Below, piece by piece: positions 34,674-59,881 of a DNA stretch of 64,000 nt (its first letter is position 1; the number at the start of each line of letters is the position of its first letter). The DNA lies in contig NZ_CP014855.1 in the NCBI RefSeq assembly GCF_002214385.1, positions 1,054,001 through 1,118,000 on the forward strand, given 5' to 3'. The stretch is from Thermococcus gorgonarius. GTDB lineage: Archaea; Methanobacteriota_B; Thermococci; Thermococcales; Thermococcaceae. Under the pieces are notes generated by a model. That model was not told the origin of the DNA. It saw nothing but the letters and a program-made list of their open reading frames with translations, and made no database searches. A program made the position numbers and the translations under genes.

Positions 34674-34750
<77 letters not shown>

Positions 34751-34852
34751 ACGCAATTGATAGAACTGAAGTGCATTTTTAAGCTTTGCCCTTAGGATTT
34801 CGCAGAGCAGGATTAAATCAAAGTTCATGGTTTCTCTTAAACTGCCAGTCTA

Positions 34853-34968
34853 AGAGGGATTCCACTGGAAAACGCTGGAGTGAATCTTGAATTTTACCTT
34901 CATCAGAAGGATTTTAATGGGGGCTTGATTTAACCGACGCTCAAAGGGCGTTAAAGGAAAGGAACTCC
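34853..34968. repeat. copy A of a ~116-base direct repeat
   Basis: Shares blocks with copy B such as AATCTTGAATT-TACCTTCATCAG, GATTTTAATG, TTTAACCGACGC and GGAAAGGAACTCC. It contains hairpin GACGCTC-AAA-GGGCGTT with two G-U pairs. Confidence 0.7.
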
Positions 34969-35658
34969 ATAATAAAGGATAATAATAGGAGAATCCAGCC
35001 TAACTTGCCTCAGTTAGATAACAAGAGATCCCCCGTTTTAGCATTCAAAATTAGCCCATAACATTCCGCCAGCGCTTTGCGCCAGCAAGCAAACTTTGCA
35101 GGGCAAAGTTTGATCAAAGAATGAACTTCAGGAAAATGCCAGAACGAGTTTGCATGTTTTCTCAAGATTTCAGACTCAAAGAGGGTTTGAACTGGAAAAA
35201 GCAAACTAAAACAGGTTTCAACATCTTCATAACGCCCTTCGGGCGTTGTACTCATAGTGAAACACTGTAGAACCAGCAAGTGGAAGAACAAACCCCCTCT
35301 AAAACGAGAATCTCCAAAAACGACATGCGAACCTTGATCAAACTTAATGAGCAAGCTTTTAGAAAAAGCTTGGCCATAAGGAGTTCTTTCTCGAATAAGG
35401 GATAGCCCTGGCGTGCAAGGTTCAACACTCTGCCGAAGTGTGAGTTTACTCCTAAAAGAAGCATTTGGAGAGATTTGCACCGTATTCTGGCGTCCAAAGG
35501 ACGCCTTGAGGATTGCAAACGTTCGAGAAATGGCAGCTAATGAGTAAACCCCTTAAGGGTTTGAGTTTTTTAGAAGGCACGCAATCTTTCCGTCAACGCT
35601 GAAGCTTTTAGAAAAAGCTTCACCAAAAGTTTGGGGTTCCTCTTAGCTCTACAGTTTG

Positions 35659-35774
35659 AGAGGGGTTCCATTGAAAATGCTGGGAGGAATCTTGAATTCT
35701 ACCTTCATCAGCGAGATTTTAATGAGAGTTCAACTTTAACCGACGCCCGAAGGGCGTCAAGGGAAAGGAACTCC
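35659..35774. repeat. copy B of the ~116-base direct repeat
   Basis: Aligned end to end with copy A, 806 bases apart. Its hairpin GACGCCC-GAA-GGGCGTC is perfectly paired where copy A uses wobble pairs. Confidence 0.7.
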
Positions 35775-35903
35775 TTGAGACGGGCAATAATGAAGGAATT
35801 CACACTAAAAACAGCTCGTAAAAGAGAATCTCCTCGTGCTTTAGCATCTCAAAGAAGAACCCCAAGCCTTGATCAAACTTCGCGCAGGCGAAGTTTGTTA
35901 GAA

Positions 35904-35981
35904 TGGCGCCCGGGCCGGGATTTGAACCCGGGTCACGGGAGTGACAGTCCCGTATGATAGGCCGGGCTACACCACCCGGGC
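35904..35981 (-). tRNA. tRNA-Asp (anticodon GTC)
   Basis: A 78-base tRNA with encoded CCA: acceptor GCCCGGG/CCCGGGC, anticodon arm CGGGA-CTGTCAC-TCCCG with anticodon GTC, T arm CCGGG-TTCAAAT-CCCGG. It starts eight bases downstream of the 5S rRNA on the same strand, the typical Thermococcales 5S/tRNA-Asp unit, and is probably processed from the same transcript. Confidence 0.97.
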
Positions 35982-35989
35982 GCATGATA

Positions 35990-36113
35990 GTGGCCGGCGG
36001 CGTTCCCGGTTTCCCGCCCCCTCCCGGAGGGCAGTACACCCGGGAACGCAGGCGGGCTTAACTTCCGGGATCGAAACGAGACCGGGTGTAACCCCGCCGC
36101 TATGGCCGCCGTA
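35990..36113 (-). rRNA. rrf: 5S ribosomal RNA
   Basis: Reading the minus strand from 36113, TACGGCGGCCATAGCGG leads into ACCCGGTCTCGTTTCGATC and GAAGTTAAGCCCGCC, the conserved 5S core, and ends GCCGCCGGCCAC, which pairs with the 5' end to close helix I. Length is about 124 bases. Exact ends are approximate by a base or two. It is not next to 16S/23S genes, as is normal in Thermococcales, where 5S stands apart with tRNA-Asp. Confidence 0.96.
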
Positions 36114-59418: not shown

Positions 59419-59842
59419 TTGGGTTTTCAAAACTTAAACCTTGCGAGCCTTTCAAGGGCATCCCTCGATTGGTTCATCTTAACCCCGGCAGAAAAGCATT
59501 TTAGTGTGGTACGCGTAACCCCCATAGAATACGGTGAGACCATCTTTGATACCCTTACAGCGGAGAAGCACGCAAAATACTCCTCGCAAGTGAACTCCTT
59601 TGAGCCCTACACAGGCCGCATCACCATTGAAGTCACGAGAGAAGGACTAATGAACCTCTTATAACAACATGAAGCCATATCCGCTTCACAAGCCAATAGA
59701 AATGCTAAAAAACAGAAATATGAAAGTCCTTGAGGTTTATACGGATATTCCGGATCAAAAACACGGGTTGTTTTCATCCGGACTAATAATCGTTGCGGGA
59801 AAGAATGGCCACGGGACGATGAGGAGAAAGCACCTCCTCTGA
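59419..59842 (+). pseudogene. two adjoining small frames, probable gene remnants
   Basis: Between relB and the convergent methyltransferase two plus-strand frames follow each other: one ending at 59664 (...PIEYGETIFDTLTAEKHAK...VTREGLMNLL) and one with ATG 59669 ending at TGA 59842 (57 residues; MKPYPLHKPIEMLKNRN...HGTMRRKHLL). They lie in different frames, lack ribosome sites, and neither is recognised. They may be a decayed gene with a frameshift, or the second may be a genuine small gene. The final codons coincide with the structured RNA at 59813. Confidence 0.35.
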
Positions 59843-59881
59843 GACCGGCGTGAGTGCTGAGACGCCCACGGTCTGAGTCCC
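59813..59881 (+). ncRNA. candidate structured RNA with GATGA/CTGA elements
   Basis: The stretch folds by eye into a closing stem GGGAC/GTCCC around two hairpins: GAGGAG-CTCCTC (59821-59839) and AGACC-GGCGT with ACGCC-GGTCT. A GATGA follows the 5' stem and CTGA precedes the 3' stem, the arrangement of a k-turn in guide RNAs. A weak TATA-like CTAATAAT lies about 26 bases upstream. Alternatively it is a terminator-like fold at the end of the minus-strand methyltransferase gene. Confidence 0.4.

Follow-up and report, generated by a model that had tools for sequence, protein, structure and literature searches.

Quasi-palindromic DNA repeats arrayed behind tRNA genes in Thermococcaceae

The interval 34751-35903 of the 64-kb stretch of the Thermococcus gorgonarius chromosome analysed here (the window) is an array of four tandem units of a non-coding, quasi-palindromic DNA repeat specific to Thermococcaceae. 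The family is anchored genome-wide at tRNA 3′ ends, the main regularity missing from an earlier note on this DNA. Our best explanation, which we hold with about even confidence, is that the units are a MITE/REP-like, non-autonomous palindromic DNA repeat that finds a safe site in the 3′ flank of tRNA genes and serves as a substrate for recombination.

The interval and its four units

ARAGORN and Rfam place two minus-strand genes at the borders of the interval: tRNA-Asp (35904-35981), the gene that anchors the array and whose 3′ end abuts the first hairpin, and tRNA-Arg (34674-34750), the downstream boundary. With the 5S rRNA at 35992-36113 (minus strand), the array lies downstream of the 5S gene on that strand, and the coordinates and flanks given in the earlier note are thus right. 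The tRNA-Arg 5′ flank (34751-34796, minus strand), a putative promoter region, lies outside the array: the stretch 34674-34796 is 98% identical in G072, a genome of the same genus in which the array is nearly absent. We also agree with the note that 34751-35903 holds no credible gene. Its open reading frames look spurious. When the interval and its borders were searched against Rfam at gathering and lax thresholds, gathering scores were reached by the tRNAs and 5S only; all weaker matches were at chance level or overlapped the tRNAs. Elsewhere in the window (59814-59878, plus strand), a C/D box sRNA (Rfam RF01128, sR43/sR42) scored well over its gathering threshold.

Counting non-overlapping hairpins with perfect stems and 3-4-nt loops, we found seven with stems of at least 7 bp and four with stems of at least 9 bp, where dinucleotide shuffles gave means of 0.33 and 0.015, respectively. 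The excess over chance that the note had claimed is therefore real, while its tally of at least eight drops to seven by these criteria. Hairpin density is the highest in the window: among sliding windows of the interval's size, two overlapping ones covering it held six hairpins each, and at most two were seen elsewhere in the 64 kb. GC content is 42.7%, compared with 51.1% window-wide.

From tRNA-Asp outwards, the minus-strand array comprises M1 (G...C, complete), M2 (D type), M3 (G...G-like), and M4 (D type, degenerate). It opens 6 nt past the tRNA with a G-type end-hairpin (35874-35897; CAAACTTCGC-CTGC-GCGAAGTTTG on the minus strand) with a perfect 10-bp stem, a position shared by the first end-hairpins behind tRNAs in other genomes. 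M1 (35615-35880) is a full 266-bp unit with homologues in other genomes; its G end lies at 35865-35880, its C end at 35615-35630, its central hairpin at 35742-35758, and its outer stem joins 35626-35644 with 35852-35870. A short perfect hairpin (35600-35622, 10-bp stem) stands between M1 and M2 (approximately 35352-35599), which has an GCGTTGACGGAA-like end near 35590 and a central hairpin at 35489-35505, and of which the part 35498-35599 is an 82% match to the sole unit piece remaining at the same locus in G072. Between M2 and M3 lies another such hairpin (35352-35372, 9-bp stem). M3 itself (35106-35345) has its G end at 35330-35345, a second G-like end at 35106, and its central hairpin at 35231-35247; it is followed by an end hairpin with a 10-bp stem (CAAACTTTGC/GCAAAGTTTG; 35090-35112) and by the D-type end motif AAAGCGCTGGCGGAA (35064-35078, matched exactly at G000:C1:1089064-1089078), which opens the distal unit M4 (approximately 34797-35063). 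Within M4, 34868-34968 duplicates 35673-35774 of M1. This is the duplication that had been put at ~116 bases: it is present, in two parts (34868-34919 versus 35673-35724, 85%; 34929-34968 versus 35735-35774, 90%) that total ~106 nt. A weaker block occurs in three copies, at 34826, 35153, and 35632.

Aligning oriented homologues, we obtained a common anatomy: a short hairpin, SATCAARGTTYG, a variable complementary stem, a central hairpin of the type GACGCCC-UUC-GGGCGUC, and the inverse end. In each end motif, SATCAARG follows the 3′ arm of a short perfect hairpin, and the ends fall into a G type (CAAACTT...AAGTTTG-ATCAAGG), a C type (GAAACTT...AAGTTTC-ATCAAAG), and a third type, D (CAGCCCTTTC...GAAAGCGCTGGCGGAA), which opens related units. 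A full unit spans ~266 bp between two inverted end motifs that are 245-256 nt apart; among 76 full units, most measured 261-278 nt, typically 265-270. Several arrays fold into long imperfect hairpins with short perfect ones between them.

Two variations on this plan were seen at other loci. End hairpins also occur in a longer four-way-junction form (L019:3499-3568, L145, L146, L224:3040-3096), whose loop carries two extra covarying stem-loops, such as CGTTGAAGC/GCTTCAACG and GGGAC/GTCCC; the short and long forms alternate at the same locus between genomes G014 and G036. Several arrays are adjoined by a GC-rich module (GGGGCGAAGCCCC, GGGGGCGTTAGCCCCC, then GGGTTTGAGAGTACAG; L019:3090-3210, L020:3800-3890, L021:3180-3215), which may be another repeat type.

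Distribution and anchoring behind tRNA genes

A DNA search of the 1.67-Mb genome itself revealed homologous stretches near 124, 179, 689, 1038, and 1633 kb, and four of the six loci immediately follow the 3′ end of a tRNA gene, namely those for His, Val(CAC), Gly(CCC), and, in the window, Asp. Allowing at most one mismatch, the end motif AAGTTTSATCAARGTTNGT was present in 75 of 94 genomes of the order, with more than 20 copies in several, while its reversed-pattern control gave zero matches in every one of the 94. The D end showed the same distribution, with a few control matches. When 84,980 species genomes were scanned for exact matches, 31 stretches came back, each carrying the label Thermococcus, Thermococcaceae, or Thermococcales; the plasmid and phage collections contained no match. 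AAGTTTSATCAARGTTNGT was found in none of nine genomes of the sister genus g3, perhaps Pyrococcus. The repeat family is thus confined to Thermococcaceae, and two of the earlier suggestions, a Thermococcales repeat family and a mosaic of small palindromic elements, are supported. Within the genus, the 1.5-Mb genome G034 is without both end motifs, and G072 and G015 have kept the D motif and are missing the G/C motif.

Of the 55 motif clusters in three complete genomes, 35 lay less than 400 nt 3′ of a tRNA and one lay within the same distance 5′; random placement reached the observed 3′ count in 0 of 2000 trials in each genome. The first hairpin begins 1-9 nt past the tRNA CCA, and the nearest motif often sits ~23, 280, 510, or 810 nt past the tRNA, spacings expected of arrays with roughly 280-nt repeats. 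Complete G...C units are oriented: the G end faces the tRNA in 34 cases and points the other way in five (p = 2.4e-6, the units being not fully independent). A G, C, or D end stands directly behind 84 of the 111 tRNAs that have no following tRNA, in a sample biased by the choice of loci for the motif. Many tRNAs are without a unit, some convergent tRNA pairs share one, and tRNA-less arrays are intergenic, some of them between divergent protein genes; at the tRNA-less loci Rfam reported no other RNA family.

On the tRNA-sense strand, starts of TTTT peak 40-50 nt past the tRNA (51 in the 84 element-bearing flanks, versus 5 for AAAA in the same bin). This U-tract at about +45 suggests that the units supply the tRNA terminator. 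Such a role is compatible with the DNA-repeat reading and could explain why insertion behind tRNAs is harmless.

Covariation, folding, and what they say about function

Across 46 units, the outer stem and central hairpin were paired in 95.2% of cells, versus 31-49% in slid controls; this control is partly circular, the structure having been derived from the same, related sequences, and the two-sided switches are the robust part. Cells changed on both sides of a stem numbered 54, compared with 18 in shuffles, and three outer-stem pairs switch fully (GC/AU, GC/AU, UA/CG), with perfect covariation across three outer-stem classes (GTGGTTC, GTGATTC, GTAGCTC). That structure is kept while stem sequence differs, as the earlier note had sensed, is borne out by these classes. 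Another possibility is that these are old repeats, spread by recombination, whose hairpins stay perfect through a mutational process (template-switch correction of quasi-palindromes) rather than through selection. The recurrence of short perfect triloop hairpins with different stems would fit this, as would structure kept on both strands without a sense bias. However, none of 14 changed pairs between close relatives was a coordinated double change at 2% divergence, and the end motifs are conserved in sequence, as is the unit in length, which leaves this explanation very unlikely.

Folding bears on whether an RNA is involved. On the minus strand M1 folds with a z-score of -4.95, and other arrays range from -3.3 to -9.2; together with the stem covariation, these values would fit a transcript shared with 5S/tRNA-Asp from which one or more structured, independently functioning non-coding RNAs are cut out of the array. 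In 50 units flanked by tRNAs on a single side, however, tRNA-sense and antisense folding differed by a mean of 0.7 kcal/mol (p = 0.49), and the sign of the strand preference differs between subfamilies. The lack of a consistent tRNA-sense bias argues against one conserved processed sense RNA, and we rejected a conserved sense strand as a general property, even though one subfamily is positive (consensus fold of -47.4 kcal/mol for the G-first, tRNA-sense strand, versus -26.8 kcal/mol). Since unit types at the same tRNA are also swapped between species and no Rfam family matches, a processed RNA is decidedly unlikely, and the long processed RNA entertained in the earlier note is not supported by the folding test.

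Alternatively, the units may be domesticated tRNA 3′-trailer elements acting at the RNA level, whose first hairpin and U-tract terminate transcription and guide 3′ processing, and whose palindromic form lets one unit serve convergent genes. The constant placement of the first hairpin just past CCA, the TTTT cluster, the biased orientation, the units common to convergent tRNA pairs, and the one subfamily with a better tRNA-sense fold all speak for this, as does the slower divergence of arrays relative to their flanks: in an array conserved in G014 and G036, we measured 2.0% divergence versus 5.6% in the flanks. Yet many tRNAs do without a unit, multi-unit arrays go beyond what termination requires, some units sit between divergent protein genes, the folding preference flips between subfamilies, and the family is missing from the whole sister genus and from G034. 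We consider such a trailer function possible, if doubtful. Against the DNA-repeat reading that we prefer, covariation, the 34:5 orientation, and the slower array divergence fit a conserved function as well, and the lack of compensatory double changes between close relatives also counts against it.

Turnover, inversions, and known systems

According to the DNA-repeat reading, units would spread as non-autonomous MITE/REP-like DNA, and their insertion directly behind tRNA genes would be tolerated because each unit end brings its own U-tract as a tRNA terminator. Mobility by a transposase is what the dispersion, end polarity, and constant length of the units would suggest. At two gene-containing loci inspected by eye we saw neither a transposase or integrase nor any larger, autonomous copy that shares these ends; candidate autonomous copies between widely spaced end motifs were rejected, as by eye they contained only toxin-antitoxin-like, AbiEi-like, and ATPase-like ORFs. 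One flank of a unit consists of the tRNA CCA plus 1-9 variable nt, and hence no target-site duplication is recognisable. Thermococcus integrases use tRNA genes (PMC8371274, PMC2718504), so arrays might instead be scars of integrative plasmids or viruses with tRNA attachment sites. Against this, the interval contains no tRNA fragments, tRNA-like direct repeats, integrase remnants, or credible ORFs, units also occur away from tRNAs, and neither plasmid nor phage collections hold a match, making such an origin extremely unlikely.

Arrays would further expand and contract one or more entire units at a time. The stretch behind tRNA-Asp varies among 30 Thermococcus genomes in first hairpins, unit numbers, and next genes, with unit types swapped between species. 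At the window's locus, the array and its G072 counterpart have both flanks in common (93% and 98%), with four units in the one and a 189-nt spacer with one unit fragment in the other; between tRNA-Asp and the adjoining unit, G014 carries ~375 bp more than G036, equivalent to one extra unit. Whole units are thus present or absent at the same tRNA in related species, a pattern in which transposition gain, loss, and unequal recombination look alike. Some apparent insertions between G014 and G039 were discarded as coding indels. Behind tRNA-Ile, arrays bracket CopG-, MazF-, and PIN-like ORFs in G014 (L222:2440-5403) and an ATPase-like ORF in G022 (L267:2453-4379), all named by eye; both insertions adjoin an AbiEi-like ORF, which may mark the tRNA-Ile array as a hot spot for islands.

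A unit is nearly its own reverse complement, and arrays could therefore recombine in either orientation. Comparing four genomes pairwise, we found 14 array loci (counted per genome pair among the loci compared, cases with unresolved sides left out) whose left and right flanks lie at two different array loci of another genome. The clearest case is a ~107-kb inversion: L229 and L231 of G014 are reciprocal joins of L123 and L124 of G021, the strands are arranged as an inversion predicts, and the paired loci lie ~107 kb apart in either genome. Both endpoints fall within arrays. In each pair one locus is without a tRNA, so the tRNA sequence alone cannot be the shared homology. The enrichment of arrays at inversion endpoints is suggestive, as a count without a genome-wide background rate. 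Inversion between tandem-oriented arrays would require palindromic homology and would leave one array shared by two convergent tRNAs and another with no tRNA at all; by flipping chromosome segments, recombination between arrays would yield just these products. In our tally, G014 and G026 have about three of each, and G021 and the window's genome do not match, and we offer the pattern as an idea rather than a finding. Somewhat unlikely in our view, and put forward tentatively, is the combined proposal that a targeted, directional, non-coding mobile palindrome inserts directly behind tRNA genes and replaces their terminators and that its arrays, not the tRNA genes, are the substrate of frequent Thermococcus inversions.

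Our literature search, which left most subscription journals outside, returned no description of this repeat family, and the hairpin-rich units behind tRNAs look like an undescribed one. Like MITEs, they are short, non-coding, dispersed, and intergenic, with inverted ends and a constant unit length; they differ in their preference for a single kind of target, in the covariation of their end stems, and in that neither a transposase source nor a target-site duplication was found. With the REP/BIME and ERIC/IRU elements of bacteria they share the character of dispersed intergenic imperfect palindromes, sometimes in mosaics, but they are longer than REPs, tRNA-anchored, and confined to one archaeal family. 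REPs measure 20-40 bp and mostly belong to two superfamilies with a GTAG or CGTC tag at one end (PMC3733652), whereas our units measure ~266 bp and end in AAGYTTSAYCAARGTT or AAAGCGCTGGCGGAA. The nearest analogue, likewise from a hyperthermophilic archaeon and located directly 3′ of about half of its tRNAs, is the Methanopyrus kandleri palindrome CGTTA-N9-TAACG, found ~10 bp downstream of tRNA genes and called M. kandleri-specific by its authors (PMC5217627). It is a single short palindrome, in contrast to ~266-bp units in multi-unit arrays with three end types and copies away from tRNAs. In the compact genome of Dictyostelium, TRE3 and Skipper-2 likewise find a safe site 3′ of tRNA genes, but are coding retrotransposons ~100 bp downstream (PMC5006619), whereas the Thermococcus units are non-coding and begin 1-9 nt past CCA. 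Closest in lineage are the repeated ncRNAs sRk48/52 and sRkB/C of P. abyssi, which are also repetitive, intergenic, structured sequences of Thermococcales (PMC3124441). The former are 130-180-nt RNAs of Pyrococcus with one T. kodakarensis copy and the latter are P. abyssi-specific with K-turns; we set both apart by description, not sequence, and no tRNA anchoring is described for either.

Thermococcales genomes rearrange very fast, with breakpoints at tRNA genes, and insertion sequences are scarce in Thermococcus (PMC5495485, PMC2718504, PMC8371274); integrases have been held responsible for the inversions already known from tRNA genes (review PMC8371274). The quasi-palindromic arrays behind tRNAs, a genus-wide family, are a concrete, testable candidate for the DNA substrate of these inversions, and the genomes G034, G072, and G015 offer natural contrasts for function. 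The family would also be an archaeal example of non-coding repeats that use the DNA 3′ of tRNA genes as a safe site and, judging from the U-tracts, repeats probably supply the terminators of many tRNA genes in Thermococcus.
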